The notes under the pieces: model-generated
Database searches by the model: none
The model's input: only the letters and a program-made list of their open reading frames with translations
What the model was told of the DNA's origin: nothing
Part shown: one piece after another, positions 28,246-45,580 of the stretch
Numbering within the stretch: the stretch's first letter is position 1
Layout of the letters: each line of letters opens with the position of its first letter
Translations under genes and position numbers: made by a program
NCBI GenBank assembly: GCA_947625975.1
Contig: CANQQL010000005.1
Location: 1 to 45,848 of the forward strand
Length of the DNA: 45,848 bases
Origin: an uncultured Bacilli bacterium
Lineage (GTDB): Bacteria > Bacillota_I > Bacilli_A > RFN20 > CAG-826
Reading direction: 5' to 3'

Positions 28246-28435
28246 ATGGTGGCAACGATTGGGTATTTTTAAAGCTTATTTTCATAAAAAGAAGTGAGAT
28301 CTTTTGAGAAAATTTTGGATCAACATGAGATTATTATGACGAAAGATTAGACAATTTATCAAAAAAATGTAATAATTAATTATATTTTTGAAGCAAACAA
28401 AAATGAGGAAAAAACATGAAATATAACTATTCAAA

Positions 28436-28612
28436 GTGTTAATTGAATTAAGATCTAGTCTAGATATATTTCAAATAGAATTATCATCTTTACTTGCGTT
28501 ATTTATGCTTCAATTAATAGATGAGAAAACAATAGAGCAACTACTACTAAGATTACGAGTTCGCATTGAGAAAATGTGCAAAGTAAATAATATAGAAATT
28601 GAAGAAGCATAG
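28436..28612 (+). CDS. Small hypothetical protein upstream of mod
   Basis: An open frame of 58 codons from a GTG, ending at a TAG that overlaps the mod Shine-Dalgarno. The predicted peptide is helical and charged (QLIDEKTIEQLLLRLRVRIEKMC). A nearby ATG at 28416 opens a different frame that stops after eight codons, and fusing the two would need one frameshift, so this may be a damaged gene. No family is recognised. Its tight junction with mod suggests it is or was the first gene of the restriction-modification operon. Confidence 0.4.
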   Translation: MLIELRSSLDIFQIELSSLLALFMLQLIDEKTIEQLLLRLRVRIEKMCKVNNIEIEEA

Positions 28613-28629
28613 GAGGGTACTTAATTAAT

Positions 28630-30378: not shown

Positions 30379-33049
30379 TTTAAATAAGGAATTATTTTTA
30401 GAGTATTCTATAGACTATATTTCTAATATAATGGGACTTAGAAAACCCCAACGAAGAAGTTTAAAAATTCTTGATTCTATTTTAGATGAAATAAAATTAA
30501 GCAAAAATCTTGAATTAAATTCAGCAAAAGAAGAAATACACAATCAATATCCTATTTTTTCTGATTTTGAACACGAGTTTATGTCTTTAACGTTTGCACT
30601 AGCTACAGGTGTTGGTAAAACAAAATTAATGGGTACATTTATTACATATCTTTATACTAATAAAGGTATTAAAAACTTTTTTGTTGTAGCACCTAATTTA
30701 ACAATTTATAACAAGTTAAAGAATGATTTAGGGAATCCATCACCAGACAATAAAAAATATGTTTTTAATGGTGTTGGTTGTTTCGCTTCAGAAACACCTA
30801 ATATTTGGTGTGATGATGATTATAGAAATAGACCAGCACATTCTTTAACCGATAGTAATTCAATAAACATCTTTATATTCAATATTTCAAAATTTAATAG
30901 TGATGAAAGAAATATAATGTCTATAAATGAATATTTAGGTCAGTCATTTTTTGATTATTTAAAAGGGCTTGATGATCTTGTTATGATTATGGATGAATCA
31001 CACCATTATAGAGCACAATCTAGCGCTAAAGCAATCAACGAACTTAAGCCAATTCTTGGACTTGAACTTACAGCGACTCCTCAAGTTCAAAGTGGAAATA
31101 GAACAGTTTTATTTAAGAATGTTGTATACGAATATCCACTTTCACAGGCTATCAAAGATGGATATACAAGAACGCCCTATGCTTTAACAAGAAAAGATTT
31201 AAAAGCTTACAATTTAACAGAAGATGAACTTGATATGACGATGCTTAATGATGGAATAAATCATCATGAAAACATTAAAGCTGAGCTTTATAAATATTCT
31301 GTAAATAACAATGTTCCTTACGTTAAACCATTTATGTTAGTTGTTTGTAAGGACACAAAACATGCTGAAAAAGTCTTAACGCATGTTAAATCTAATGCTT
31401 TTAAAGAAGGAAAGTATAAAAATAAAGTTATTTTAATTCATAGTAATCAAACGGGTGCTGAAAAAGAAGAAAACATTCAATTATTGTTAGATGTTGAAAA
31501 ATCAGATAATCCAATTGAAATTGTTATTCATATTAATATATTAAAAGAAGGATGGGATGTTAATAATCTTTATACCATTGTTCCATTAAGAACTGCGGCT
31601 AGCAGAACATTAAGAGAACAAACTGTAGGAAGGGGATTAAGACTTCCATACGGTCAAAGAACCGGAGATAAATATATCGATTCGGTTACAATTACTGCTC
31701 ATGATAAATTTGATGAAATAATTGCCGAAGCACAAAGAGATGATTCTATTTTCAAAGCAGATGGCATTATCTATGCTGAATATGAAAAAGAAAAGAAAAT
31801 GACGCAAGTTTCTACAAATCCAGCTTTATTTGATCTTGATGAAATGCGAGGAGAAGTGTTAAACGAAATAGGATTTGATCATAATGATGAAAATGTTGTG
31901 CAAGGATATAATGCAATAATGTCTAGTATTATTGATGCAACAACAGAAGTTAAAAAATCTAGCTTTACTAAAAATGTTAAAAAAGAAGATATAAAGGAAA
32001 CTGTAGAAAAAGATCTTGGAGAACGTTATAAAGAAAACACAGATATTAATAAATTGCTTTCTCTTATATGGGGATTAGATCAAACTGATGAAATAATTGA
32101 AGATGCACAAGAAAAAACAATGTATATTCCTAAGATAAAAGTGGAAAATCTAGGTAACGAACAATATATAATTCAAGATTTTGAATTGGATTTGTCTAAT
32201 TTAACATATGTTCCTATTTCAAATGAAATCTTGCTTACAAATCTTTTGAATACATATAAAGATGCAGAAGTAATTAGTAAAGGTGTTATAGATTATGATT
32301 CTATTAATCCAGAAATATCACTTGTTTCATTAATAAGAGATGTTAATGAAATTGATTATGAAAAATGCCCCGATATTATTCAAAAATGTGTAAAAAACTT
32401 TCTTTCTTTTTATAGAAATAAATATAGTGAAGTAGAGGTAAGAAATATATGTTTGATGTATAAAAAAGATATTGTAAAAAAAATTGCCCATCAAATTATT
32501 CAGCACTTAGCTATTAAATATGATGACATTTTTGAATCTGTAGAAGGAATTGAAACTGTAGTAAACAAATATGTAATAGATGTAACTGATGGAATTAAAA
32601 ATATTAATGAGAGCACTGAAGTTGGAGAAAACATATCATCTATTGCCTTTGATGGTGCAAAAAAAGCCATTACCATTCCAGTAAAATTTGATAGTGAACC
32701 AGAAAGAAAGTTTGCTGTAGTATGCGAAAATTCTCCTGAAGTTCTTCAGTGGTTACGACCATCGCCAAAACAGTTTAATATTACTTATAATAATGGAAAA
32801 AGATATGAACCAGATTTTGTTGTAGAAACAAAGGATTGTTATTATCTTGTTGAGATAAAGGCAAGTAATAGATTGCAGGATCCCGATGTGTTAGCAAAGA
32901 AAGATAGAGCAATAAAATATTGCAAAGTCGCAAGTGAATATAATATTGCACATGGGCATAAGCCTTTTAGGTATTTATTTATACCTCATGATGAAATTTC
33001 ACTTTCATCAAGCTTTGATAACTTAAAACTTCGCTTTGAAGAGCAATAA
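30368..33049 (+). CDS. res: Type III restriction-modification system, helicase/endonuclease (Res)
   Basis: An 893-residue SF2 translocase/nuclease. Walker A is ATGVGKTK (79-86), the DEAD-box motif is DESH (209-212), motif III-like ELTATPQ follows, and motif VI reads REQTVGRGLRLP. The C-terminal PD-(D/E)xK nuclease carries Pro815-Asp816 and Glu829-Ile-Lys831. With Mod it cleaves DNA between inverted target sites. The start was chosen at ATG 30368, six bases after GGAGG. Further ATGs at 30362 and 30371 are alternatives. The overlap with mod means translation may be coupled, so a frameshift in mod could reduce Res. Confidence 0.94.
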   Translation: MMNNLNKELFLEYSIDYISNIMGLRKPQRRSLKILDSILDEIKLSKNLELNSAKEEIHNQYPIFSDFEHEFMSLTFALATGVGKTKLMGTFITYLYTNKGIKNFFVVAPNLTIYNKLKNDLGNPSPDNKKYVFNGVGCFASETPNIWCDDDYRNRPAHSLTDSNSINIFIFNISKFNSDERNIMSINEYLGQSFFDYLKGLDDLVMIMDESHHYRAQSSAKAINELKPILGLELTATPQVQSGNRTVLFKNVVYEYPLSQAIKDGYTRTPYALTRKDLKAYNLTEDELDMTMLNDGINHHENIKAELYKYSVNNNVPYVKPFMLVVCKDTKHAEKVLTHVKSNAFKEGKYKNKVILIHSNQTGAEKEENIQLLLDVEKSDNPIEIVIHINILKEGWDVNNLYTIVPLRTAASRTLREQTVGRGLRLPYGQRTGDKYIDSVTITAHDKFDEIIAEAQRDDSIFKADGIIYAEYEKEKKMTQVSTNPALFDLDEMRGEVLNEIGFDHNDENVVQGYNAIMSSIIDATTEVKKSSFTKNVKKEDIKETVEKDLGERYKENTDINKLLSLIWGLDQTDEIIEDAQEKTMYIPKIKVENLGNEQYIIQDFELDLSNLTYVPISNEILLTNLLNTYKDAEVISKGVIDYDSINPEISLVSLIRDVNEIDYEKCPDIIQKCVKNFLSFYRNKYSEVEVRNICLMYKKDIVKKIAHQIIQHLAIKYDDIFESVEGIETVVNKYVIDVTDGIKNINESTEVGENISSIAFDGAKKAITIPVKFDSEPERKFAVVCENSPEVLQWLRPSPKQFNITYNNGKRYEPDFVVETKDCYYLVEIKASNRLQDPDVLAKKDRAIKYCKVASEYNIAHGHKPFRYLFIPHDEISLSSSFDNLKLRFEEQ

Positions 33050-33072
33050 AAAAGAGCGTTCAAAATTATAGG

Positions 33073-33114
33073 AAAAACCATCATTGTCTATTGTGATCTT
33101 GGTGGTTTTTTGTT
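33073..33114 (+). terminator. Terminator after the restriction-modification operon
   Basis: AAAAACCA (33073-33080) pairs with TGGTTTTT (33103-33110) around a partly self-paired loop, ending in a T run. It lies 24 bp after the res stop. Confidence 0.65.
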
Positions 33115-33126
33115 TGCTTTGAGCTG

Positions 33127-33166
33127 CGTGTATTGTATCAAATTGGTAATCTTTTGCCATGTTAGA
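33127..33166 (+). repeat. Direct repeat A flanking the acyltransferase gene
   Basis: CGTGTATTGTATCAAATTGG... resembles repeat B at 34497-34542 over about 44 bases, with small gaps and roughly four of five positions the same. The sequence right after it (CCAAATTAATACAAT) can fold back on its start. Function unknown. Confidence 0.5.
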
Positions 33167-33205
33167 AAAACCAAATTAATACAATGAAATTCATCATTTA
33201 TAGTA

Positions 33206-34357
33206 TCAATTTGTTTTTATTTTCTTAAAAATATTTATCAGCTTTAGTTTAATTTTACTGAAGAAATCTTTATAAAATTGCGGGATTTTCCGATTAATTA
33301 TGAAAGCAAAGGGCGAATAGATGATAAAATAATAAAATAGTAAAAGAGTTATTGTCGAAAAAATTGATGAAACTACGCAATAAAAGAGATAATTTAAATT
33401 TTCAGTTCCTAAAATTCTAACACTTTGATACCAACCAGAGGCGAGATAATTATTAAATATAGGAATTGTCACAACTTGATGAAAAGCTAATAAGACAATT
33501 GTACTTTTTCCGAATTCACTGAATACCTTATTACGAATGCCATTACAAATTAGGATAACTCCAAGTGAATTTGAAACTGCGGACGGAAGGGTTAGATAAT
33601 ACTTTTGATACTGTCGCGCCCACATTTCGAGATATGTTCCATATGAATGATAATTATATTCGCTGATTAAGTAACCAATCGCAAATAAAGCGATACCGAT
33701 AAGCAAACTGATCCATCTTTTTGAAAGAAGAAAAGTTCGAATCCTCGTAAGATCTTGATGATTAAACAGGTATCCGATGAAGATAAAAAAGACACCAAAT
33801 AATGAAACATCGATATTCCATACATAGGTATAATTAAAAAACTTGTTAAAGAAGATTGCGATTCCTAAAAAAGCTAATGCAATTAAAGTGCAATAAACCA
33901 ATTTCTTTCTTCCTAATTTGACAACCGAATAAAAGAAAACATCAGCAAAGAATAAAGCTCCGACAAACCACAAAGCATAGACACGTTTTTGCTCGATTAA
34001 ATTGATTAACATTTGTCCAATATAAGTAATATCTTTAGGATTACCCGCCAAGGAAGCCATCATCATTTCGGAAAAGATTAAAAGAATTCCGAGACAAAAG
34101 ATTGGAATTAAATAGGACTTCATTTTGCGCTGCAAAAAGATTACAAATGGTTCATCGTCACGAATTTTTAGGGTTATGCCGTTTAACACGAAAAAAATTG
34201 GGAGACTGAAACTATAGCAGACATGGATTAATTCACCTTGACCGCCAGTTGTATGACAAAGTATAACTAGAAAAATAGTCAAGAATTTTGCGGTATCAAC
34301 ATAATCTAAACGTTTTTTCTTAATTTCCTGATTTGTTTCAAGCACAGCTTCTTTCAT
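33206..34357 (-). CDS. Membrane acyltransferase family 3 protein (OatA-like)
   Basis: A 383-residue minus-strand protein with about ten membrane helices. The family 3 signature near the N-terminus reads RLDYVDTAKFLTIFLVILCHT, with the conserved His. Such enzymes move acetyl or similar groups onto sugars of polysaccharides or peptidoglycan. The substrate here cannot be inferred, and no partner glycan genes are adjacent. It is a lone leftward gene between restriction-modification genes and gene remnants, bracketed by related direct repeats, so it may be a cargo cassette. The fused SGNH domain found in some OatA proteins is absent. Confidence 0.82.
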   Translation of the reverse strand: MKEAVLETNQEIKKKRLDYVDTAKFLTIFLVILCHTTGGQGELIHVCYSFSLPIFFVLNGITLKIRDDEPFVIFLQRKMKSYLIPIFCLGILLIFSEMMMASLAGNPKDITYIGQMLINLIEQKRVYALWFVGALFFADVFFYSVVKLGRKKLVYCTLIALAFLGIAIFFNKFFNYTYVWNIDVSLFGVFFIFIGYLFNHQDLTRIRTFLLSKRWISLLIGIALFAIGYLISEYNYHSYGTYLEMWARQYQKYYLTLPSAVSNSLGVILICNGIRNKVFSEFGKSTIVLLAFHQVVTIPIFNNYLASGWYQSVRILGTENLNYLFYCVVSSIFSTITLLLFYYFIIYSPFAFIINRKIPQFYKDFFSKIKLKLINIFKKIKTN

Positions 34358-34496
34358 TTTTCTTTCCTCATTATTTAAAATACATTATTATCCTAATTAT
34401 TCCAACTATTAAAGTTTTGATTTTTTAAGTGAATTGATTTATTTTTAAAAAAATTACTTATAAATTATTTATAGCCTGTGCATATTCGCTTGCACC

Positions 34497-34542
34497 CGTG
34501 TGCATTGTATCAAAATGGTTTGCTTTTGTCATGATGATAGAA
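34497..34542 (+). repeat. Direct repeat B flanking the acyltransferase gene
   Basis: CGTGTGCATTGTATCAAAATGG followed by CTTTTGTCATG and ATAGAA, aligned with repeat A in the same orientation about 1.37 kb away. It could be an old duplication, element ends or a recombination site. Confidence 0.5.
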
Positions 34543-34586
34543 TAAAGATGATACACTTTGAGAGTTTGAAAAAAATCAGTTTATCG

Positions 34587-34677
34587 TTAAGAAATTATTA
34601 ACAATATGCTATAATCTCATCTTTGACAGTTGGAGAAAAGGGAAAGAAGAAAAAAAGCCTAAATAAAGGCGTTTTTC
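34587..34677 (+). other. Short promoter-terminator unit, possible small RNA
   Basis: TTAAGA (34587-34592) and an extended -10 TGC-TATAAT (34610-34615) are 17 bp apart. About 35 nt after the predicted start comes GCCT-AAATAA-AGGC (34657-34670) flanked by A and T runs, which could terminate in either direction. No open frame fits between, so a transcript of roughly 55 nt is the simplest reading. The rest of the 34360-34840 gap holds nothing I can name. Confidence 0.35.
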
Positions 34678-34842
34678 TACTTTTAATATAATCAAAAAAA
34701 GTTGTCCCGTATCTATTTTTTGGAGTTAGAGATGATTTTTTTAATATTAGAAATTCCATAGGCCTCTTTGTTAAGAGGTAATTCAAATAATAAAACTAAT
34801 AAATTAGATAGGTTTGAAGTTTTGTAATTAGATGCATAACCA

Positions 34843-35423
34843 ATGTCTTTTAATTTAAATAAATCTAAGTGTTTTCATCATGTCAAGTACATACCTTCTT
34901 TCTGCTCTATGAATTTAGCAAAATTCGATGAATTTTATAAAGCCCGTATGAGACTTATGAAAATTGAATTAGTGAACGTTTTAGGCTGCTCTGACGAAGT
35001 AAAAGCAGTATTGAGGCATCAATCAACAATGAAATAAATGAGGAACAAAAAGCATATTGTGCCAAGTACATTCCGATGTTAGAAGATTTTTTTAATAATC
35101 CATTAAAGAATGAATGGTGCAAAAAATACAACATGTATTCTGATGAACCAAAGAACGCTGAGAATCATGATGCAATATACAAAAATTTAATGACTGATGC
35201 CTATGAAGCTGGTGTTGTAATTAATAACTATAATTCAGTATTAAAAGATATTCCAAATTTAGAAAATCCATCAGATGAATTCTTGTCTTCTTTATCATTC
35301 ATTCAATTAATAGCAGCAATTGCACATTATTTCCATGCTGACCATTTTGATAAAGGATGTTTAGTAAGAGTTGTGGGCAATGGAATATTATTAAAATATT
35401 TTAGAGAAGTAGTAAGAAGATAA
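34843..35423 (+). pseudogene. Frameshifted hypothetical protein, DUF6508-like C-terminus
   Basis: Two consecutive frames, 34843-35037 (64 residues) and 35076-35423 (115 residues), look like parts of one gene. The second frame is open further upstream (SINNEINEEQKAYCAKYIPMLEDFF) and meets the first near 35005-35010, where one extra base would join ...CSDEVKAV to EASINNE.... The C-terminal end (FIQLIAAIAHYFHADHFDKGCLVRVVGNGILLKYFREV) resembles DUF6508 proteins of unknown function, an assignment from memory and tentative. If the second part is expressed alone it would start at ATG 35076, which has no good Shine-Dalgarno. Confidence 0.45.
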
Positions 35424-35513
35424 GAAGCATAAGAACTTATATAAATAGGTATTGTTCGACTTGTATATTTATAAAAGTATTCTTAAACTATAAATGAGAT
35501 TATGATAAAATAA

Positions 35514-35738
35514 AAAAATAAAAGCTACAAAACATACCCAATTAACCATAACTTTTGTTTAAACAAAAAAGAAGTAGAAGAAATACTTGCAAAATATAAT
35601 GATTTTGGTTTCCCAAACTTTTGCTATATTGCATGTAGATATGAAAATGACTATTTATTAGTCTATCTAGATCCTATAGATTATTATGCATATTTTTGTA
35701 ATAAAACACTTTTTGAAGATATTATGGACATCGATTAA
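35514..35738 (+). pseudogene. Start-less open frame, gene remnant
   Basis: A 74-codon open stretch with protein-like composition (KKEVEEILAKYNDFGFPNFCYIACRYEN...LLVYLDPIDYY) but no start codon and an in-frame stop just upstream. It is not recognised. Between it and 35940 there is only AT-rich sequence and a terminator. Confidence 0.3.
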
Positions 35739-35918
35739 GAGGAAGAAGAATTTCTACTCCAAACATTAAAACCAAAAGTTATAAAGATTACAAAGAGAGA
35801 TATAACACTTTCAATAAAAGACTAAATTATTAAATTGTGAATAAAAGATTATTATAGTATTGAATATTGAGAATGAAATCTTCCTAAAATTTGATTTAAA
35901 ACAATGATTTAAGAAGCA

Positions 35919-35942
35919 AACCACTCTCCAGCGAGTGGTTTT
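35919..35942 (+). terminator. Intrinsic terminator
   Basis: AACCACTC (35919-35926) pairs perfectly with GAGTGGTT (35933-35940) around TCCAGC. The T run is short (four). Confidence 0.6.
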
Positions 35943-35945
35943 CCT

Positions 35946-36197
35946 TTGCTAAAGGTGAAGATTATTAAGGCGAAAAATATAATTGATCAAAAAAAATCAA
36001 ATATAGCAACTAACGGAGCTTGGTTATGTGAATATTCGGTCTTAAATAGAATTGAAACAAATTCTATTGTTGTAAATTCATTATTAACTATATTATTTTC
36101 CTTTGTTGTTTTAAAAGAAAAATTAAGTAAAAAATCATTACTTGGTTTATCACTATTAACAGGTTTGATTGTTTTAATTATTGTGTTTGGTTTGTAA
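35946..36197 (+). pseudogene. C-terminal fragment of an EamA/DMT-family transporter
   Basis: The 83 codons end in the last helices of a drug/metabolite transporter: GAWLCEYSVLNR, then NSLLTILFSFVVLKEKLSKKSLLGLSLLTGLIVLIIVF. This is the typical EamA repeat end with the ...LxEKLS... loop. The other eight or so helices are missing and the first 25 codons have no family likeness, so this is taken as a remnant. The 36198-36430 gap has no gene. Confidence 0.6.
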
Positions 36198-36431
36198 AAG
36201 CATCATTTTATTTTTATAGGGTTTGACAATCAACATTTAGGTATATTAAAGAAAACCAGACCTTTGAAAGTGCAGAAATTGCACATACTCGAAAAATATA
36301 GATAGATTTTTTGTGAAATTCTAAATTGTGCATGAAATTAATATTAAAACCCGTTTTGTGAATTAGAGGTTATGATAACAATGGTAGAAATAGAAGATTT
36401 TATTTTTAATCAGTTAAACAAATAAAAAAAA

Positions 36432-36445
36432 GAGGGAAAACCCTC
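36432..36445 (-). terminator. Terminator of the dinJ-yafQ operon
   Basis: On the minus strand GAGGG-TTTT-CCCTC is followed by eight T. The left arm overlaps the yafQ stop codon. Confidence 0.85.
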
Positions 36446-36722
36446 ATTTGAAAAGATCGGAATGACTACCAATTCTATTTAATACTAAAATAAGAACATC
36501 ATCCTTGATGGAATAAATTAAAAGCCAGTCGGGTTCAATATGGCATTCTCTTACACTGCTATAATTACCACTTAAACTATGATCCCTAAATTTAGGAGGA
36601 AGCGGTTCACCATTAGATAGCATCTCAATAATAGAAAACAGCCTATCTAAATCCTTTCCTTGTTTTTTTGCCTTCTTAATATCCTTTTGAAATTGGGTAG
36701 TAAATTGAATTTTATACTTCAT
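36444..36722 (-). CDS. yafQ: YafQ-family mRNA interferase toxin
   Basis: A 92-residue RelE-superfamily toxin. The catalytic residues known for YafQ are all recognisable: His48 in RDHSL, His61 and Asp65 in CHIEPDWLLIY, and His87 in IGSHSDLF. YafQ cleaves mRNA on the ribosome and is held inactive by DinJ. The start overlaps the dinJ stop by 4 bp, so the antitoxin is made first. Expected to be active if expressed. Confidence 0.93.
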   Translation of the reverse strand: MKYKIQFTTQFQKDIKKAKKQGKDLDRLFSIIEMLSNGEPLPPKFRDHSLSGNYSSVRECHIEPDWLLIYSIKDDVLILVLNRIGSHSDLFK

Positions 36723-36982
36723 ATATCCAAAGCCTTTTTTAAATCATCTATGTTACTAAAAGCAGTGGAAGTTAAAGATTTACCTTCTTCAATTGCTTTC
36801 AGTGTTGTTTCATTTGGAATATTTAATTTTACATCAAAAGGGATTCCCTGTTCCTGAATAGCTTTTCTTAAAAATATATTAATCGCAGTTGTCATATTTA
36901 AACCAAGTTCATTAAAAATCTTTTCGGCAGCATTTTTAACATCCTTATCCATACGGATATTAATATTTGTACTTTCTTGCAT
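36719..36982 (-). CDS. dinJ: DinJ/RelB-family antitoxin
   Basis: An 87-residue ribbon-helix-helix antitoxin: NINIRMDKDVKNAAEKIFNELGLNMTTAINIFLRKAIQEQGIPFDV is the DinJ DNA-binding domain, and the C-terminal part would wrap around YafQ. The Shine-Dalgarno is GGAGG. The pair likely represses its own promoter through the inverted repeat found between the -35 and -10. Toxin-antitoxin modules often stabilise genomic islands. Confidence 0.93.
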   Translation of the reverse strand: MQESTNINIRMDKDVKNAAEKIFNELGLNMTTAINIFLRKAIQEQGIPFDVKLNIPNETTLKAIEEGKSLTSTAFSNIDDLKKALDI

Positions 36983-37003
36983 AAGTTGACCTCCTATATT
37001 ATT

Positions 37004-37040
37004 TTATGCTTATTTTAGTATTTTATACGCATAATGTCAA
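37004..37040 (-). promoter_or_regulatory. dinJ-yafQ promoter with embedded operator
   Basis: On the minus strand TTGACA (37035-37040), a 17-bp spacer and TAAAAT (37012-37017). Arms TTATGCTTAT (37004-37013) and ATACGCATAA (37025-37034) are complementary at nine of ten positions and fill the spacer and -10, the expected place for DinJ autorepression. Confidence 0.7.
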
Positions 37041-37185
37041 CACAATGCACATATTATCAATAGATTTCTTGTAATTAGGAGATAGCCATATAAATTGCAT
37101 ATATTAAGATTCAATAATAGATGCCTGAACAAAGAGATATTATTTATAAAATTAGTTTAGCTTTAGAGATTGAGTTTGTAATGGC

Positions 37186-37488
37186 ATGTTAGAACTATTT
37201 ACAGGCGTTTCCGGTATTCTAGCTTCACTTGGCTTGATGGAAGCAATTGATGTACAAAAGGAATTTCAAAAACTTTATTTTGATCTTGCAGGGAATCCCG
37301 AACCTGTAGCGCTAGATATGTTGTGGATGGTGACGGATGACAATCGCATTGTTTACGGGAGTTATTATCCGCATTCCCCTGCTAAAGTAATTATTTCAAA
37401 GAAAAAACATTTAGAAAATAATCCAAAATATAAGGAATTACTCTTTAAAATTTATGGAGAAAATGAAAAAATAATTTTAAATAAATAG
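37186..37488 (+). pseudogene. C-terminal fragment of an amidohydrolase (ACMSD-like)
   Basis: 100 codons resembling the end of the amidohydrolase-2 family, including the metal-site segment RIVYGSYYPHSPAKVI, in which the usual GSDYP aspartate is replaced by Tyr. Full enzymes have about 300 residues, and the N-terminal metal ligands are absent. It starts at an ATG without a good Shine-Dalgarno. It is read as a non-functional remnant. Confidence 0.55.
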
Positions 37489-37695
37489 GACGACTTATAT
37501 CTATAATAAATTTCAATTTAACTGCCTAGTCAAATAAGTTATTTTAAATAAAAAGATATTTTGAACGAGTTAGCCTACAAAGATCAGTATCAACTCTGTT
37601 AATTTTGCGACATTGCCTCCATCAGTGCCACTGTTTTATTTGGCAAGAATTTATTTTAACTTGAAAAAAATTAAAGATTAATTTATATAAAATCT

Positions 37696-37746
37696 ACCCA
37701 GTGAAATAGACACTTAAATAGATGCTCTACCAACTGGGTTTTATTA
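37696..37746 (+). terminator. Possible terminator with a long loop
   Basis: ACCCAGT (37696-37702) pairs with ACTGGGT (37733-37739), followed by TTTTATT. The 30-nt loop makes it a weaker candidate. The remainder of 37489-37889 shows no gene. Confidence 0.4.
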
Positions 37747-37889
37747 TGCATAAAGGCGAAGATTTTATGCCCTATTATTAGATTTAGTAAACCTATTACT
37801 CTTAAGCAATATTAAACAATTTGTTAACTTGAAGTAGGCGTATTTATTCGAGTAAACTAAAAATACTATTTATTCGGAGAGTTATATTT

Positions 37890-38734
37890 ATGCAAAAGAT
37901 TATTACAGAGAAAACAATCAAAAAATTTTTAGCACACCTTAAAAGCGAGGAAAAAAGCAAAAATACCGTGGAAAAATATCTACGGGATGTACGAGGTTTT
38001 GCCATCGCCCAAAACGGAAAACCGGTAACGAAAAAAAATGTAATTTGCTACAAACAACACTTGATAGAAAGCGGTTATGCAATTCGTAGCGTCAATTCAA
38101 TTTTAGCAAGTCTTAATAGTTTGTTCACGCTTTTAAACTGGCACGATTGCCGAGTGAAAACTTTAAAAGTACAGCGACAATTATTTTGTCACGAAGAGAA
38201 AGAATTGAACAAAGCGGAATATCAACGTTTGTGCCAAGCAGCACAAAATAAGCATAATGAAACGCCTAAACCTTATTTTACAGACTATTTGCAGTACCGG
38301 TATTCGCGTGAGCGAACTTCCGTTTATCACCGTAGAAGCAGTTCAACGCGGTGAAGCTATTGTGAATTGCAAATGCAAAACAAGAATAGTATTTTTAGTC
38401 AAATCCCTACAAAAAAAAATTACGTCAATACATTATAAAGCAGAAACTCAAATCAGGTACAATTTTCGTCACCCGTAAAGGCAAGCCAATGAGTAGGACG
38501 AACATATGGCGTGAAATGAAGGCATTGTGTGAAAGTGCTAATGTTGCACCAGGCAAGGTCTTTCCCCATAATTTACGTCATCTATTCGCACGGGTGTTTT
38601 ATGGTATAGAAAAGGATATTGCCAAACTAGCAGACATTCTCGGTCACTGTAGCATCAATACAACGAGAATCTATATTGTCAGCACTGGTATAGAACATCG
38701 TCACAAAATGGAAGCCATGCGACTGATTATATAA
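37890..38734 (+). pseudogene. XerC-like tyrosine recombinase interrupted by two +1 frameshifts; probable switch invertase
   Basis: Joining three frames gives one recombinase of about 280 residues. The SAM-like core-binding domain (SEEKSKNTVEKYLRDVRGFA...) runs to about residue 110. Catalytic segments follow: TGIRVSEL (Arg), HNLRHLFA (His-x-x-Arg), LGHCSINTTRIYIVST (His and Tyr nucleophile). The first shift is at GAAACG (about 38258), where one A too many separates ...NKHNE from RLNLILQ. The second is at a run of nine A (38411-38419), where eight would keep frame. The start has GGAGAG upstream. It lies next to a perfect inverted repeat, as inversion recombinases do. Each break is a single extra A, so sequencing error or slippage is possible. 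Confidence 0.8.
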
Positions 38735-38760
38735 AAAGTCGCTGAAAAGCAAACAGCGAC
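38733..38760 (-). terminator. Leftward terminator facing the invertible segment
   Basis: On the minus strand GTCGCTG (38754-38760), a nine-base loop, CAGCGAC (38738-38744), then five T (38733-38737). There is no T run in the plus direction. It would stop transcripts leaving the invertible segment leftwards. Its first four bases are shared with the left inverted repeat. Confidence 0.8.
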
Positions 38761-38781
38761 ATAATACACATTATGTTGCAA
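38757..38781 (+). repeat. Left inverted repeat (IRL) of the invertible segment
   Basis: 25 bp beginning CGACATAAT and ending ATGTTGCAA, the exact reverse complement of 39059-39083. It contains its own near-palindrome ACATAAT-ACAC-ATTATGT, i.e. two recombinase-arm-like halves around a short asymmetric spacer, as tyrosine-recombinase crossover sites have. Confidence 0.93.
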
Positions 38782-38833
38782 AAACTAATAAAATGCATTA
38801 AAGCATATATGTATTGTTTTTGCGATCATATAT

Positions 38834-38862
38834 AAAATACTGATACTTTTCGCAATAGTCAA
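38834..38862 (-). promoter_or_regulatory. Promoter inside the invertible segment, facing left (OFF orientation)
   Basis: Minus-strand -35 TTGACT (38857-38862), a 17-bp spacer and -10 TATTTT (38834-38839), start near 38827. TTGCGA (38820-38825) and TCGCAA (38850-38855) form an inverted repeat around the -10 that could be an operator. As assembled, the transcript would run about 90 nt to the terminator at 38733-38760. Confidence 0.65.
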
Positions 38863-39058
38863 TAATGGAAACAAAAAAAATACAAAATGTTTAAAAACTT
38901 TTTTGAAAAAAGGTGAATTTTATTCCAGATTTATCAAAAATTTTATAACACGAAATAAGCCTTTTCAAAAGTACAAATGAAAAGACTTGTGTTTTTGTGC
39001 ACATTTTATGAAAAACAGTTCGATTAGATTACCAGATACTATTTTTATCAGACATAAG

Positions 39059-39083
39059 TTGCAACATAATGTGTATTATGTCG
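39059..39083 (+). repeat. Right inverted repeat (IRR) of the invertible segment
   Basis: 25 bp beginning TTGCAACAT and ending ATTATGTCG, exact reverse complement of 38757-38781. It ends 30 bp before the sipW ATG, so only a leader and Shine-Dalgarno separate the switch from the operon. Confidence 0.93.
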
Positions 39084-39113
39084 TTTTTGCATCGTAGGAA
39101 GGAGTTTATCTAT

Positions 39114-39755
39114 ATGGAATCGAATCAACTAGAAAACAGTAATAGTGCTGATAAACTAGGCAAAAAAACTGTCGGTGGAAAAAAACACAATTTTATCGGC
39201 ATCGCTAACATTATTGGAATTCTCCTTTGTATCCTCATGTTGCCGGGCTTTATAATCTCCACAACACTTTTCGCCAGTTCTCTAATTCATAGTGATCTTC
39301 CGCCAAGTTGCTTCGGTTATACACCCCTAATAGTGGAAACTGGTAGTATGTCACCGGTTTTTGATGAAGAGGATGTTGTGTTGATTAAAAATAGCACTCC
39401 CGACATGTCTTTCGATGTTGACGATATTATCTGCTATCATAGTGGTAACGTTTATGTGACACATCGAATAATAGAAGTTACCACAGATGAAAATGGGATC
39501 ACATTATATACTACAAAAGGAGACGCAAACAATGCCGCTGATGAAGAAGCGGTACACCAAGATCAAATCCTTGGCATTTACAAGACACGTTTTAAGGCCA
39601 TGGGCAAAACGCTTATGTTTATTCAAACACCAGCAGGTATGATTCTATGCGTAATGATACCTTTTTGCATTGTGCTCCTACTCTTTTTCGTCCCGCCACT
39701 AATCGCGGCTCGTAAAAAAGAAAATTCCTCGAAAGAGGAGCATTCTATTCGGTAA
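39114..39755 (+). CDS. sipW: SipW-type (ER-type) signal peptidase I, first gene of the fibre operon
   Basis: A 213-residue membrane protease. It has a transmembrane helix at about 26-58, the catalytic Ser78 in ETGSMSP, His117 in VTHRI and the acid in KGDANN (Asp137), the Ser-His-Asp arrangement of SipW/ER-type signal peptidases. A C-terminal helix lies at about 182-204. SipW processes TasA-like fibre proteins, whose precursors are encoded next. In-frame codons from 39069 fall inside the inverted repeat. The ATG at 39114 has AAGGAG ten bases upstream and gives a normal start. Expression probably depends on the orientation of the upstream switch. Confidence 0.92.
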   Translation: MESNQLENSNSADKLGKKTVGGKKHNFIGIANIIGILLCILMLPGFIISTTLFASSLIHSDLPPSCFGYTPLIVETGSMSPVFDEEDVVLIKNSTPDMSFDVDDIICYHSGNVYVTHRIIEVTTDENGITLYTTKGDANNAADEEAVHQDQILGIYKTRFKAMGKTLMFIQTPAGMILCVMIPFCIVLLLFFVPPLIAARKKENSSKEEHSIR

Positions 39756-39820
39756 TAGCCTGCCGGCCACACGGATTAGGTGATTACATATATTAAATTA
39801 TATTTTGGAGGTTTTGAAAC

Positions 39821-40441
39821 ATGTTTAAAACAAAGAAAAATGGTTTTTTAAAAGCATCTGGTATTATGCTAGCTTCCATGATGCTAGCTACTGGTGTCAT
39901 TTCTGGTACTATGGCAAAATACAAATCTACCGGAACCACTGAAGGTAGTGTAAGTATTGCAAAGTGGGACATTCAAGTTGGTTCATCCACACTCGCAGCG
40001 ATGGATGCCCTTCAATTCGAGATTTACGACACAGTTGAGTCTGGAGGCAAATTTACGAATGAAGATGATAATGTCAAAAAAGGTATGATTGCTCCAGGTA
40101 CATGGGGGTTTGCAAGAATAGAAATTAAAAATGTGGGTGAAGTTGATGCTAACATTAGCGCTACTTTCACAAAAAATAGTTTGAGTGGTGCTCTGCCTGC
40201 AGGAATGAAATTTGAGGTTGTTAAAGATGATGCACCAGTAGATTATAAAAGTATCACTGGCACGACACTTTCTATTAGTGATGAGGTCGTCACTAAAAAA
40301 ACTGGTACTCTCAATTTATATGTTGCATTTGTATGGTCATTCGAGAGTAATGATAATGATGCCAATGATATGACTTTTGCTTCAGGAGCTGAAAGTCTTA
40401 AATTAGGCGATCTAGCTATTACTGCTACTCAAGTAGACTAA
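39821..40441 (+). CDS. TasA/camelysin-like secreted fibre subunit 1
   Basis: A 206-residue exported protein. The N-terminus has the SipW-cognate signal: basic start MFKTKKNGF, hydrophobic GIMLASMMLATGVISGT and the MAKYKSTGT junction, with cleavage likely after Ala32. The mature part is an all-beta TasA-like domain: SIAKWDIQV, APGTWGFARIEIKNVGEVDANISA, LNLYVAFVWSFES. TasA and CalY polymerise into extracellular matrix fibres. GGAGG precedes the ATG. It follows sipW by 65 bp. Very similar in layout to the second subunit at 40768. Confidence 0.88.
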   Translation: MFKTKKNGFLKASGIMLASMMLATGVISGTMAKYKSTGTTEGSVSIAKWDIQVGSSTLAAMDALQFEIYDTVESGGKFTNEDDNVKKGMIAPGTWGFARIEIKNVGEVDANISATFTKNSLSGALPAGMKFEVVKDDAPVDYKSITGTTLSISDEVVTKKTGTLNLYVAFVWSFESNDNDANDMTFASGAESLKLGDLAITATQVD

Positions 40442-40450
40442 TAAGCAAAA

Positions 40451-40536
40451 ACAAGCAGACGACGCATGCGTCATCTGGATTGATACAACTGGACTGACAG
40501 CCTTAGATGTGGCGCTGGCTGTCTGGTCTGCTGTGT
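40451..40536 (+). ncRNA. Structured intercistronic RNA element between the two fibre-subunit genes
   Basis: Three nested helices can be drawn. An enclosing stem is AGCAGAC (40454-40460) with GTCTGCT (40526-40532). A 12-base self-complementary GACGCATGCGTC is at 40461-40472. A hairpin is GACAGCC (40496-40502) with GGCTGTC (40517-40523). The stretch is noticeably richer in G+C than its surroundings. No T run follows, so it is not a simple terminator. It may stabilise or process the mRNA. Confidence 0.5.
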
Positions 40537-40567
40537 CTAAAATTATTAATTAAACCTTTAATAGTGG

Positions 40568-40595
40568 AGTTTGCAAGAATAGTTTTCTGCAAACT
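40568..40595 (+). other. Hairpin in the leader of the second fibre-subunit gene
   Basis: AGTTTGCA (40568-40575) and TGCAAACT (40588-40595) form a perfect 8-bp stem with a 12-base loop. No T run follows. Confidence 0.45.
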
Positions 40596-40640
40596 ATACT
40601 CTTAAGTGCTTAAATTAGCAATAGAAGTGAGGTGTGCAAT

Positions 40641-40775
40641 ATGGAACTATATGAAATCACGAAATACGGAAATCGTAATTTTTTTCTTCCCTTTCTCTAT
40701 GTAGACAAGGCGATAGTAGACCAGGCATACATCAAAACACAAATTATATACATAGGAGGTTATGCAGATGATTGA
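40641..40775 (+). CDS. 44-residue small ORF overlapping the second fibre-subunit start
   Basis: ATG 40641 with GAGGTG upstream opens 44 codons (MELYEITKYGNRNFFLPFLY...IYIGGYADD) ending TGA at 40773-40775, eight bases into the next gene. The AGGAGG of the next gene lies inside this ORF. The layout suggests translational coupling or a leader peptide. No signal peptide and no family are recognised. Confidence 0.45.
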   Translation: MELYEITKYGNRNFFLPFLYVDKAIVDQAYIKTQIIYIGGYADD

Positions 40776-41433
40776 AATAAAGAAAAACAGCTTTCTTAAA
40801 ATTGCATGTCTTATGCTAGTTGTCATAATGCTAGCTACCAGCATAATTTCCGGAACTCTTGCTAAGTATTATAGTGAAGGGAATGTATCCGCTGGCAATT
40901 TAGCATTAACTATAGCGAAGTGGAATGTGCAGGTTGAAGATCAAACACTAGGTGACTCGGAATTTTCTGTTGAAATAAGCAATCTCGAGTGGGAAATCGC
41001 AAATATAGAAGAAGAGGTCACCACCGCGGCAACACCTTATGCTGCTGCACCTGGAACATGGGGATTTGCACAAATCGTCACGATTGAGAACCAAAGCGAT
41101 GTGGATGCAATCGTGAAAATCAATTTCGATGATTTTTCACTGCCTGATGCAACGAAATATGGTAAATATGGTATGGAGTTCAAGATTGTTGCAATGCCTC
41201 ATATTGAATCAATTGATGATATGTCGGGTTATGAAGACATGACAAACGATGACGTGGTTGACCTTAAAAATGACGGTGTTAGAATTGCGATTAATGATAG
41301 TATAACTATTTATGTTTGCTATACATGGGAGTTCGATGGTGATACCAAAAATAATGTTGATGATACGGATATAGCCGGAGAATCGATTGAATTTGGTGGT
41401 ACTATCACCATCACAGCGGAGCAGGCAAACTAA
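40768..41433 (+). CDS. TasA/camelysin-like secreted fibre subunit 2
   Basis: A 221-residue precursor paralogous to the 39821 product. The signal KNSFLKIACLMLVVIMLATSIISGTLAKYYSEG aligns without gaps (cleavage likely after Ala32). The TIAKWNVQVEDQTL, APGTWGFAQIVTIENQSDVDAIVKI and ITIYVCYTWEFDG segments match, with an insert at about 75-90. Of the ATGs at 40762 and 40768, the second has correct eight-base spacing from AGGAGG. Likely processed by one of the two SipW enzymes and incorporated in the same fibre, perhaps as a minor subunit. Confidence 0.87.
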   Translation: MIEIKKNSFLKIACLMLVVIMLATSIISGTLAKYYSEGNVSAGNLALTIAKWNVQVEDQTLGDSEFSVEISNLEWEIANIEEEVTTAATPYAAAPGTWGFAQIVTIENQSDVDAIVKINFDDFSLPDATKYGKYGMEFKIVAMPHIESIDDMSGYEDMTNDDVVDLKNDGVRIAINDSITIYVCYTWEFDGDTKNNVDDTDIAGESIEFGGTITITAEQAN

Positions 41434-41458
41434 GCAGTATTTTCTAGGCGCAAATAGC

Positions 41459-41986
41459 ATGATACAAAAAAATAGTTTACGTCTAACACGGAAGATTGCT
41501 AGAGGAATATTTGCGGGGTTATTTCTTCTGATTGTGTGCTTATTCGGATATACGACGATTGCGCGCGTTACAGGTAATCCCCTTCCCACCGTTTTTGGGT
41601 GGGGTAGCGCTGTAGTGCTTTCCGGTAGTATGGAACCGGAGCTTCCGGTTGGTACACTTATTCTCATTCACAAAGAGAATAGCTACAAAGCTGGAGAAAT
41701 TGTCACATACGAAGATGAATATGGGAACCTTGTCACCCATCGGCTGGTGTCTTTGGAAAACGGAGAGGCTATCACGAAGGGTGATGCAAATAATACAGAG
41801 GATGCCTCGTTCACAGCATCAAAGATTTATGGAAAAGTAAAGGCTGTGCTACCTGGCGTCGGTGGCATAATTCTATGGTTAAAGACGCCACTAGGAATTT
41901 GCACAATCTTATTGATTGGCGGGTTACTAATAATTATTTCAAGTTATTTCAAAAGAAAGGTGGATCAAAAAAATGCTCAAACATAA
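41459..41986 (+). CDS. Second SipW-type signal peptidase I
   Basis: A 175-residue membrane protease with one N-terminal helix (about 14-33), catalytic Ser57 in LSGSMEP, His94 in VTHRL, Asp109 in KGDANN and a C-terminal helix. It is shorter than the first SipW. The two differ clearly in sequence, so they may serve different precursors. Its Shine-Dalgarno is weak (TAGGCG), 25 bp after the fibre gene. The end overlaps the next gene by 14 bp, pointing to co-translation with that protein. Confidence 0.9.
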   Translation: MIQKNSLRLTRKIARGIFAGLFLLIVCLFGYTTIARVTGNPLPTVFGWGSAVVLSGSMEPELPVGTLILIHKENSYKAGEIVTYEDEYGNLVTHRLVSLENGEAITKGDANNTEDASFTASKIYGKVKAVLPGVGGIILWLKTPLGICTILLIGGLLIIISSYFKRKVDQKNAQT

Positions 41987-42710
41987 CGATAATTCGACGA
42001 TTCCGCCAATGGAGCGTGATTCAAAAGAGCCAATTACCGATCGAGAAAATTCGGCAAATGCTTTGATTACTCGTAAAACAAGAAAGTTATCCCAGTTGGT
42101 GATATTCAGTCTTGCTTTCTTGCTAACTACTGCACTTATTATGGTCGGTGGCTCGTTTTCTAGAATTACCTCTAAGGGAGATGTCTCGGCTTCTTCTCTT
42201 ACACTGATGACAGCGGGGATTGATGGCGTTGAAGTAGATGGCACAAGCTATACAGAAGAAGATAATGAATTATTTTTTTATAACGGTGATGATACGCTGA
42301 TTGAGCTCTACAGTTTCACGATAACCAATAATAGCGATGTAGATATAACCTATGATATGGAATTGAATATAAATGATATTTCTATAAATGATACTTCATG
42401 GTCGAATGAACTAGAAGGTTTAATATTTTGTCTTTATGATGATGATGCCGAAAGTGATGAGCCCATTGTAAGAATAGATAATGCGACATGGACTGGTATT
42501 GTTGAAAATAATGATCCTCCAGTGTTCAAATACTCTACCGGCACTGACCAAACGGTTATTTTGGATAGAGAAGATACAACATCGAAAACATATGTATTGG
42601 TTATGGATTGTTCCGATATTGAACTAATGGGTGGCGACAGGTATGATATTTGTATTTCCGGCACAATCACTTTCACGGTAAATCAAGTAGCAAAGGAGGG
42701 AGAATCGTAA
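41973..42710 (+). CDS. Secreted or membrane-anchored third component of the fibre operon
   Basis: A 245-residue protein with a long charged N-terminus (1-40), a hydrophobic segment (about 41-60, LVIFSLAFLLTTALIMVGG) and the SFSRITSKGDVSASSLTLM junction that recalls SipW-type signals. The acidic, beta-rich exterior part includes ELYSFTITNNSDVDITYDMEL, similar in style to the NxSDVDAxxx strand of the fibre subunits. It could be a distant TasA-fold accessory subunit, analogous in place to TapA, but homology is not clear. AAAGGTGG precedes the ATG. It is probably processed by the overlapping second SipW. Confidence 0.7.
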   Translation: MLKHNDNSTIPPMERDSKEPITDRENSANALITRKTRKLSQLVIFSLAFLLTTALIMVGGSFSRITSKGDVSASSLTLMTAGIDGVEVDGTSYTEEDNELFFYNGDDTLIELYSFTITNNSDVDITYDMELNINDISINDTSWSNELEGLIFCLYDDDAESDEPIVRIDNATWTGIVENNDPPVFKYSTGTDQTVILDREDTTSKTYVLVMDCSDIELMGGDRYDICISGTITFTVNQVAKEGES

Positions 42711-42712
42711 AA

Positions 42713-43168
42713 ATGAAAAGCAATCGTAATATGCCCGTCAAAACAATTTTCTATAGCATTCCTGCCTTGATTCTACTCTTTGTGGCAATTATCCTTCCCG
42801 TTGGTACGACTTTAGGAAAATATAGCAAAGAGCTTGATTCGCTTACATTTGATAACACATTCCCGTTAACGCAGGAAATCTTTGATAATTTTACTAAGAA
42901 TGATCCACCTGATACTAACAATCGCCCTGGCATGGAGGAAGAAACGCCGACGACCATTTATCAGGTGCAATCCGGTGATACGCTTTCTTCTATTGCAGAG
43001 AAGTTCCACACAACTGTAGAAGCATTGCTAGCGTTCAATCATATGGACAATGCCGACTGTTTACAAGTTGGTATGATTTTGCATATTCCTCCAAAGGACT
43101 ATGTTGTTCCTGAGTTAGATGAAGAAACAAATAGTACTAAAATGACATCTAACATCGAATCTGATTAA
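42713..43168 (+). CDS. Membrane/exported LysM protein of the fibre operon
   Basis: A 151-residue protein: hydrophobic segment (about 12-33), then GTTLGKYSKELDSLTF, which resembles the GTxAKY junction of the fibre subunits, a linker, and one LysM domain (83-126, YQVQSGDTLSSIAEKFHTTVEALLAFN...LQVGMILHIP). LysM binds the glycan of peptidoglycan, so the protein could anchor the fibre to the wall. The Shine-Dalgarno GGAGGGAG overlaps the end of the preceding gene. It is the last gene before a terminator. Confidence 0.85.
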   Translation: MKSNRNMPVKTIFYSIPALILLFVAIILPVGTTLGKYSKELDSLTFDNTFPLTQEIFDNFTKNDPPDTNNRPGMEEETPTTIYQVQSGDTLSSIAEKFHTTVEALLAFNHMDNADCLQVGMILHIPPKDYVVPELDEETNSTKMTSNIESD

Positions 43169-43186
43169 ATTTATAATTCATTTTTC

Positions 43187-43217
43187 AAAGAGCCTAGTTA
43201 ATCGAGGACTCTTTTTG
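43187..43217 (+). terminator. Terminator of the fibre operon
   Basis: AAAGAGCCT (43187-43195) pairs with AGG-A-CTCTTT (43205-43214, one bulge), followed by five T. It lies about 20 bp after the LysM gene. Confidence 0.75.
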
Positions 43218-43400
43218 GCATTTTAAGAAAATATTTAGCATCTGACAATCATGCCATTGATATTAAAGCATGACTATTAAAGAAAATTTATAGAGGCTTT
43301 TTACCTACGAATAAAATTAAAAATAAAGTGAGTATTTCTACAGAAAATAACGATTGGAGGGCTATAAATGCCTTTAAGTTAATATTTCACAGAAATCACC

Positions 43401-43430
43401 TTGACAACACAAAATGTGAAATGTTATTCT
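43401..43430 (+). promoter_or_regulatory. Promoter of the 43456 membrane protein gene
   Basis: TTGACA (43401-43406) and an extended -10 TGT-TATTCT (43425-43430), spacer 18. ATTTCAC (43384-43390) and GTGAAAT (43416-43422) form an inverted repeat around the -35, a possible operator. The rest of 43218-43400 holds nothing recognised. Confidence 0.6.
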
Positions 43431-43455
43431 GCACTTGAAAAGGAGTTAAATATAT

Positions 43456-44454
43456 ATGGAAAAAATAAAAAAACTAGAAAGCTTAATGGACAAAGGCTGG
43501 TTTAGAATAGTCCTTTTTCTAGCATTTGGCGTGTTTAGCATCGTGGTAGCATGTATCTTTGCAATCTTAGGTAATTACATTTCTTTGACAGGCGGTGAGG
43601 AAGGGTATATGTTTTTAATGTATGCAATTGGCTATCCTACCTTAATCTTAATGTATTATGTCTGCGATGTTATAAATAATTCTAAACATTCGGTTACTAA
43701 ATTCATTCGAAGATTATTAATGATCATCTCTTTGATAGTGTATCTGTTTTTATTGATATGTGCATGCTGTATCTTTATACAAGATTTCAATGAAGGAAAT
43801 ATAAAAAATGCTTTTTTTGCAGGTTGGGGCTTTGCTCCATTGATAACTTACCCTTTAGTATATTTCTTTCTCGCCGGAAGATTTCAAAACAATGTTTCAA
43901 AACGTACACAATTTATTTTATTGCTTGGGGCAAATATCTTACCGATTTTACTTGGCTTTATTATCATGTTAATATTGAGGGGCGTGAATAATAGCACAAC
44001 AACAAAGATCGTTTTGATTGGCTTTATAGTTCTCATCATTTTAGCATTTATTGTGCGCATTAAAAAACATGGCTTCTTCGTTGATGATATTAATTATAGT
44101 TCCTCAAGTTCAACATCGGACTATAGTTCATCTGATTATTCAAGTGATGATAACGATTATGATTCTGCAGTTAGAAATATGGAAACCATGGCTTCTTGGC
44201 GATATAAATTAAGTCAGGCAATCATAAATAGCGGTGGAAGAAATTACATGACTGTCTCATGCGATACAAGAGTTAGTGACTCAGTCATTTATTTGGATGT
44301 TACGATCGATGTTTCTTATGTGGCAAAAACTATGCCAGATATGCTTGAACATGAATATGAGGTCATGTGCAAAGAAGTCGAACGAGCTTGGAGAAATGCC
44401 GCGCGAGATTGTCCTTATGATTCAGAATTAAATTTTGGACAACCTATTTATTGA
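43456..44454 (+). CDS. Hypothetical polytopic membrane protein with a Ser-rich linker
   Basis: A 332-residue protein of unknown family. There are six predicted helices in the first 200 residues, a Ser/Asp/Tyr-rich low-complexity linker (about 212-235, YSSSSSTSDYSSSDYSSDDND) and a soluble C-terminal domain (about 240-332) with YMTVSCDTRVSDSVIYLDVTIDVSYV, likely cytoplasmic or external depending on topology. It has its own promoter and AAAGGAG. It is monocistronic between two terminators, so no partner is implied. I cannot assign a function. Confidence 0.75.
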   Translation: MEKIKKLESLMDKGWFRIVLFLAFGVFSIVVACIFAILGNYISLTGGEEGYMFLMYAIGYPTLILMYYVCDVINNSKHSVTKFIRRLLMIISLIVYLFLLICACCIFIQDFNEGNIKNAFFAGWGFAPLITYPLVYFFLAGRFQNNVSKRTQFILLLGANILPILLGFIIMLILRGVNNSTTTKIVLIGFIVLIILAFIVRIKKHGFFVDDINYSSSSSTSDYSSSDYSSDDNDYDSAVRNMETMASWRYKLSQAIINSGGRNYMTVSCDTRVSDSVIYLDVTIDVSYVAKTMPDMLEHEYEVMCKEVERAWRNAARDCPYDSELNFGQPIY

Positions 44455-44518
44455 TTAGGTAATTAATTATTAAGAAAACCTAATAATTATTCGTTTTTAT
44501 AAGCCATTTAAATTTAAT

Positions 44519-44553
44519 AACCACTGATGTTATGTAACTTTGGTGGTTTTTTT
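44519..44553 (+). terminator. Terminator after the membrane protein gene
   Basis: AACCAC (44519-44524) and GTGGTT (44543-44548) close a hairpin with an 18-base loop, followed by seven T. Confidence 0.7.
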
Positions 44554-44671
44554 GTATTATAGATTTGTGCTATACGCAACTAAAGATTTAAAACAATACT
44601 TTATCAAACAATTGTTTTTTATTACTCAAGAAGTTTATGTTATACTTAAGAAGTCATTTGAGGTGGAAACT

Positions 44672-45580
44672 ATGGATAAGTACGAATTATTTTTTAAAAA
44701 TGGTGAATACCAAAAAATTGTGGACGAACTTGAATTTTCTATTAATCCTCAGGAAATTTGGTTAGTAGTCGATGCTTATGTTCAACTAAATCAACTAGAT
44801 AAGGCCATCCGCACTATTGAAAATAATCGCGAATTACTCTTAAAAGATGATGCCAAAAAGACGATGTTTTTAAATATTGATTTGCTATTATTAACTAATG
44901 ATTTTGTAAGAGCTTTAACTGCTTATAGCTACTATGAAGAACTACCCTATATTTCCATTGAAATTGAGGAATTTTTGCCAGAATTAAAAAAGTATATCTA
45001 TCAAAAAATATCTAACAAAACTTCTAAAATGAGTGATGATGAAATTATTAATAATTTAAAGAATTTTGATCATAGAGATTTGTTTTTAAAGTCGATTTAT
45101 GAAGTGCAAAAACGCGATATTAAGCCATTTTTGCCCTTTTTAAAAGATGCATTAAAAAGTGAAAAAATTGATAACACGATAAAAAGTCTCATTCTGGTCT
45201 TATTAGTAGAAAAAAAAGTTGAAGATGAAGTAAAGGTAAATAAAAATGGGTGCGAATATACATTAATACCACGCTTTCTAGATCCGATAATTACTACGAA
45301 AGAAATTGAAACTATCGTCTACCGACATATTAAAGACAAAGACGTTTCAATTTTAAATTTAGTTAATCAACTAATGGTGGATTTTGCGCTAAAAATTTAT
45401 CCAGACAATTTTCTAGAGGAAAGCGAAGAAGAATATTTGATGGCCTTTTATATACTGGCCTATGAAATGTTTAATAAAGATGTCAGAAGTATTGAAGCAA
45501 TGATTAAAGAAAAGAAACTGAACATTCAAACAATTCGAGGTCTTAAAACTCTTATTGAAAATACGATTAAAAATCTTTAG
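44672..45580 (+). CDS. TPR-like hypothetical protein (YsoA/DUF3196-like)
   Basis: A 302-residue, largely helical, soluble protein. The N-terminus shows TPR-like pairs (YELFFKNGEYQKIVDELEF, EIWLVVDAYVQLNQLDKAIRTIENN). It resembles the TPR protein found beside tig/clpX in many Firmicutes, an assignment from memory and tentative. The ATG at 44672 has GAGGTGG upstream. Upstream in-frame codons from 44540 fall in the terminator and promoter. An extended -10 TGT-TATACT lies at 44641-44646. It appears to mark the return of core-type sequence after the island. Confidence 0.7.
   Translation: MDKYELFFKNGEYQKIVDELEFSINPQEIWLVVDAYVQLNQLDKAIRTIENNRELLLKDDAKKTMFLNIDLLLLTNDFVRALTAYSYYEELPYISIEIEEFLPELKKYIYQKISNKTSKMSDDEIINNLKNFDHRDLFLKSIYEVQKRDIKPFLPFLKDALKSEKIDNTIKSLILVLLVEKKVEDEVKVNKNGCEYTLIPRFLDPIITTKEIETIVYRHIKDKDVSILNLVNQLMVDFALKIYPDNFLEESEEEYLMAFYILAYEMFNKDVRSIEAMIKEKKLNIQTIRGLKTLIENTIKNL

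Follow-up and report, generated by a model that had tools for sequence, protein, structure and literature searches.

A putative invertible promoter with a frameshifted Xer-like recombinase precedes a SipW-type operon in an uncultured Bacilli genome

Invertible promoters lying beside tyrosine recombinase genes are already a known kind of switch. Phase-variable surface structures shape gut colonisation, and have been described mostly in Bacteroidota. The tapA-sipW-tasA operon of B. subtilis is under SinR-type regulation. The described invertons closest to the locus analysed here are those of hCom2 group 139, which, according to the main text of PMC11892184, is dominated by Clostridia (32/33), has a tyrosine-type recombinase/integrase nearby, and shows flipping backed by reads. 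The same text reports repeats of 26 bp about 205 bp apart in Clostridium sp. D5, and of 14 bp about 227 bp apart in Intestinimonas butyriciproducens (PMC11892184).

The window, a stretch of 45,848 nucleotides analysed as a whole, contains what is very probably an invertible promoter with a dedicated recombinase, acquired horizontally, whose flipping would by now be lost in this genome or dependent on a recombinase acting in trans (features in Table 1). Positions 38757-38781 are the exact reverse complement of 39059-39083 (25/25 bases, gap of 277 bp), so that the perfect inverted repeat of the original prediction was reproduced; the wider match, 38752-38781 against 39059-39088, reaches 28/30 bases. 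By chance, the 45,848-nt window should contain about 7×10−7 exact inverted pairs of 25 bp lying no more than 1 kb apart, and a chance origin of the repeat was ruled out on this basis. The 277-bp interval, which had been described as non-coding, has no ORF that reaches 80 aa, and the locus thus has inverted repeats around a short non-coding segment, as invertons do. The core reads ACATAAT-ACAC-ATTATGT, with palindromic arms and an asymmetric spacer, and fits the near-palindromic crossover site that was expected. Over the 1.27 Mb of the genome, ACATAA-N6-TTATGT was found at the two sites of the window and once, unpaired, on contig C8. This last match (C8:19438) was discarded as a further site and attributed to chance, as it is single and base composition predicts about one.

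Table 1. Features of the switch and of the operon behind it (positions in the window)
Feature	Position	Strand	Remarks
Xer-like tyrosine recombinase gene, two single-base frameshifts	37890..38734	+	SAM-like N-terminal and Phage_integrase domains
Crossover site 1, ACATAAT-ACAC-ATTATGT	38759..38776	+	within repeat 38757-38781; core ACATAA-N6-TTATGT conserved beside relatives' recombinases
Putatively invertible non-coding segment between the two 18-bp cores	38777..39063		homologous segments in both orientations among relatives
Candidate promoter TTGACT-N17-TATTTT, facing away from sipW (OFF)	38834..38862	-	57 bp from site 1, versus about 47 in relatives
Hairpin of the AAGCCTTTTC..GAAAAGGCTT type, within the segment	38955..38990		conserved across segments
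Crossover site 2, inverted copy of site 1, identical spacer	39064..39081	-	within repeat 39059-39083
sipW1, ER/archaeal-type signal peptidase I	39114..39755	+	TIGR02228 74.0 bits (cut-off 51.85)
TasA-like secreted protein 1, SipW-type signal sequence	39821..40441	+	homologues in L018, L062, L029
TasA-like secreted protein 2	40762..41433	+	36% identical to protein 1
sipW2, second SipW-type signal peptidase	41459..41986	+	TIGR02228 82.5 bits
TasA-like secreted protein 3	41973..42710	+	homologues at same operon position in L018, L062
LysM-domain protein	42713..43168	+	PF01476 56.7 bits; homologues in L018, L062, L029

The gene to the left of the first site had been proposed to encode a XerC-like tyrosine recombinase. 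It is indeed adjacent and of the tyrosine type, but it is not intact. Its two domains and the R..H-x-x-R..H..Y residues are recognised in pieces, owing to the frameshifts, which alignment with intact relatives placed near 38260 and within the A-run 38411-38419. Coding is spread over three frames, and the catalytic motifs GIRVSEL, HNLRH, GH and TRIY are still legible piecewise; a read-through translation was used solely as search query. Internal stops were absent from 77 of the 78 relatives checked. That the copy meant to act on these sites is frameshifted counts against an active switch, not against the architecture. No second copy of this recombinase family was found in the genome, whose 89% completeness makes an overlooked one possible; apart from it, the search matched two Xer recombinases of the ordinary kind. 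The recombinase was absent from the same-genus genomes searched, and megablast against plasmids gave no match. Given the frameshifts, and since no further family member was found, the OFF state may be permanent here.

The frameshifts could also be sequencing or assembly errors, or the A-run could itself be a slipping tract, in a strain that still flips between ON and OFF with a fully active switch. We regard this as possible but rather unlikely. Both frameshifts are of a single base and lie in A-runs, one of which has 9 A; the remainder of the recombinase, with its catalytic motifs, shares 79% identity with an intact relative, and the ORFs of the operon are intact, as would fit an active switch. 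Against errors stand the run of just 3 A at the other frameshift, the low likelihood of two independent errors within one gene, and the long ORFs of the window that stay open (904, 915 and 773 aa), from which it follows that the assembly is not generally indel-prone.

A putative host dif, ACTTCGCATAA-TAGATA-TTATGTAAACT, was found on another contig of the genome (G000 contig C12:27717-27737, L104), with a gene for a Xer recombinase at a distance of about 4.4 kb. The sites of the inverton match it at 11/12 core positions, and the host has its two Xer recombinases in intact form, so that XerC/XerD might act on these dif-like sites in trans while the resident recombinase is dead. This appears improbable to us: the arms of the inverton sites are symmetric, continuing as TTATGTTGYA and not as TTATGTAAACT, and nearly every relative has kept a dedicated recombinase. 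Xer recombination normally requires FtsK and is biased towards resolution, two properties that weigh against inversion by XerC/XerD. Three possibilities are left for the switch of the window: locking, service in trans, or an error in its sequence. As read, it is OFF in this genome and probably no longer self-sufficient.

A scan of GTDB genome contigs yielded 80 recombinase loci, to which the window and two further search loci were added; the module count was restricted to the 66 loci with at least 450 bp downstream of the recombinase. Two ACATAA-N6-TTATGT sites were present in 62 of these 66, the first lying 3 to 81 bp past the recombinase gene and the second mostly 220-305 bp away, usually about 260 bp; 4 of the examined loci had no recognisable site pair. 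The N6 spacer was identical, in inverted orientation, within the locus in 62/63 two-site loci, with 51 distinct N6 across loci, and none of 76 spacers had a palindromic inner N4, where 4.3 were expected from column composition. Spacers matched per locus and never palindromic are the pattern of a strand-exchange overlap, because homology is needed there and asymmetry enforces inversion; the locus-specific N6 would have this role. Conservation drops fast beyond the 12 core positions (consensus TTATGTTGYA). The exact site pattern was present only as the single inverton pair in 6 of 10 relatives' genomes, and in three genomes with several modules each (G531, G537 and G538) every site pair had a different spacer. 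This suggests spacer-coded insulation, in which a private N6 would stop different invertons of one genome from recombining together. Four loci (L052, L063, L073, L081) carry extra tandem crossover sites at one segment end, giving a total of three or a pair of direct copies; deletion, or inversion between other pairs of sites, could then become possible.

Promoters were called over the 62 segments with a home-made sigma-70 score. A segment usually held one promoter, its −10 most often about 46-50 bp from one site. It lay beside site 1 and pointed back (OFF) in 43 segments, beside site 2 and towards the operon (ON) in 10, and was unclear in 9. BLAST between segments gave orientations with which the aligned promoters agree: those of L030 and L033 are opposite relative to fixed flanks (80.7% over 161 bp), and those of L032, L033 and L050 are opposite to the window group. 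Both orientations are thus found, all differences being between species. Contig ends at most 400 bp from the recombinase fell on the inverton side at 16 of the 80 loci, and on the opposite side at 2 (p = 0.0013). Such a bias would be expected if both orientations coexist in samples, and other repeats may contribute to it.

In the window, the predicted TTGACT-N17-TATTTT exists on the minus strand (38862..38834). Taken alone it is not above chance, as it scores 9/12 and 3 promoter-like matches were found in 38500-39200 versus 3.7 expected; the −10, TATTTT, is a weak one, and the minus strand has another match, TTGAAA-N17-TAAAAT, at 38968..38940. We favour the first as the promoter because its position is conserved in relatives. 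Inversion would bring the end of its −10 to 108 nt before the sipW ATG at 39114, close to the 100 nt or so proposed initially. A promoter within the segment deciding the expression of the adjacent gene is thus indicated by its sequence and by a conserved position in 53/62 segments. The conserved hairpin, which swaps side along with segment orientation, is probably a bidirectional terminator or insulator. As a whole, the invertible-promoter architecture, the OFF orientation and the control of the sipW operon put forward in the original prediction are supported by the 62 loci with a site pair, matched spacers and both orientations.

Inverted repeats are also known as operators or element ends, and those of the window might be an operator, an attenuator or the ends of a mobile element, with no inversion taking place. 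Covariation of spacers within loci, the lack of palindromic spacers, mirror-placed promoters and segments in both orientations are all hard to explain without inversion, and we hold this possibility to be very remote. In the inversion mechanism that we propose, the dedicated Xer-like tyrosine recombinase, encoded directly upstream, would recombine the two inverted dif-like sites. In the ON state the promoter of the segment would drive sipW, TasA-like 1 and 2, sipW2, TasA-like 3 and LysM. In the OFF state, seen here, the promoter would face the recombinase and the hairpin would stand between upstream transcription and sipW, so that the operon should be silent.

The operon of the window has the order sipW–TasA-like–TasA-like–sipW–TasA-like–LysM, and all six ORFs are intact. 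A SipW/TasA/LysM fibre operon had been announced; SipW (TIGR02228) and LysM (PF01476) stood up to profile searches, while TasA had no profile match. Both sipW products match the archaeal/ER-type SPase I profile; on the NF046067 SipW model, sipW1 scored 89.9 bits and did not reach the cut-off of 190. Searches of Pfam, NCBIfam and PDB sequences gave the window proteins no match to TasA or camelysin. A low-confidence AlphaFold model of a TasA-like protein (pLDDT 54), compared with the jelly-roll, donor-strand type of fold expected of TasA, has a beta fold, with pilus subunits as top matches and the TasA fibre (8aur) at rank 5. We did not retain TasA identity as established, as it has for it a SipW-type signal peptide, this beta-fold model and the SipW neighbourhood. 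Cargo proteins of some relatives match camelysin PF12389 and TIGR04088. The LysM protein is presumably a cell-wall anchor.

The same operon was found behind the same switch in two rabbit MAGs (L018 and L029) and in Candidatus Soleaferrea massiliensis AP7 (L062), a sequenced isolate whose recombinase is intact, with the order sipW–TasA-like–(another secreted protein)–sipW–TasA-like–LysM. Across 391 Clostridia genomes sampled, a sipW1 orthologue was found in Soleaferrea only, and this exact operon is therefore rare. About eleven further modules precede SipW-type peptidases or SipW-signal proteins, several of which score to TIGR04088 or camelysin, and SipW/TasA-like secretion makes up about a quarter of the modules with readable cargo; other modules have large secreted proteins, SPFH-like proteins or others. 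In six loci (L052, L056, L057, L063, L073, L077), the inverton is followed by a TetR-like regulator, then by SipW/TasA-like genes, a recurrent order that would pair phase variation with regulation. In four genomes (L037, L050, L066, L072), the gene after the module is SPFH-like (IIKYEGDNSTFIWKHP), which is not a surface cargo and is unusual as such.

In the recombinase tree, the recombinases of the window and of L013, both from Bacilli, pair inside Clostridia. The genes flanking window positions 27,843-44,674 sit 0.2-1.2 kb apart in two congeners, so that about 16.8 kb is an insertion; GC content is 38-40% versus about 28%. Horizontal transfer from gut Clostridia probably brought the module into this Bacilli genome. 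In a third congener the corresponding place is taken up by about 9.7 kb, so that it looks like an insertion hot spot. The island also contains a type III restriction-modification system (N6_N4_Mtase and ResIII, 28630-33049) and, just left of the switch, a YafQ/RelB toxin-antitoxin pair (36444-36982) surrounded by gene remnants across 34.4-37.5 kb.

Such a locus could be a dead remnant, a horizontally gained switch in decay, permanently OFF, with a silent operon. The frameshifted recombinase, the degenerate −10, the gene remnants close by and a recent island missing from congeners would all fit; six intact operon ORFs and two sites that are still perfect 25-bp repeats do not. We take decay as a serious candidate, though we stop short of favouring it. 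Under the mechanism proposed above, the frameshifts would have put an end to flipping, or left it to a related recombinase, for instance the host Xer.

With one rule (ACATAA-N6-TTATGT twice, inverted, just behind a characteristic recombinase), switches that are self-contained can be recognised in some Bacilli and in many uncultured Clostridia of the gut. We lean, by a little, towards the view that these are widespread mobile dif-derived cassettes of gut Firmicutes, with their own recombinase and an insulating 6-bp spacer code, placed repeatedly before SipW/TasA-type operons and making fibres a heritable coin-flip. Phase-variable fibre formation is directly testable in S. massiliensis AP7, an isolate with intact recombinase, switch and operon.

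Like Xer/dif systems (XerC/D, XerS, XerH, XerA), the inverton sites have a 6-bp centre and arms matching the TTATGT half of dif, but they are paired, inverted, beside a gene and symmetric in their arms, versus a single dif (PMC5357621). The recombinase scores best to the XerA and XerD models, yet below all Xer equivalog cut-offs (for an intact relative, XerA 143.8 vs 220, XerD 124 vs 330, XerC 117 vs 335). As in the Bacillus tapA-sipW-tasA operon, a SipW-type peptidase is encoded together with likely secreted substrates bearing SipW signals; the window differs by its two sipW, three TasA-like genes and one LysM gene, with TasA homology unsupported by profile, and by a putative invertible promoter in place of the SinR-type regulation of B. 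subtilis. In the Clostridioides difficile RecV switches (flg, cwpV), a tyrosine recombinase likewise inverts a short non-coding segment before surface-structure genes, but RecV serves several distant switches, whereas here every switch has its own adjacent recombinase (PMC5903667). Within the open-licence literature, no paper was found that links SipW or TasA with an inverton or phase variation, and this cargo appears undescribed; the main text of PMC11892184 makes no mention of SipW or signal peptidases. That the case is not a standard described one, as originally stated, is thus fair for the cargo, but the type of switch is well known, and its sub-family may have been surveyed already as group 139 (main text of PMC11892184). 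By its description there, group 139, with invertase group 35, may belong to the same family as the switch of the window: it is dominated by Clostridia, has a tyrosine-type recombinase nearby, and is the closest published match (PMC11892184).
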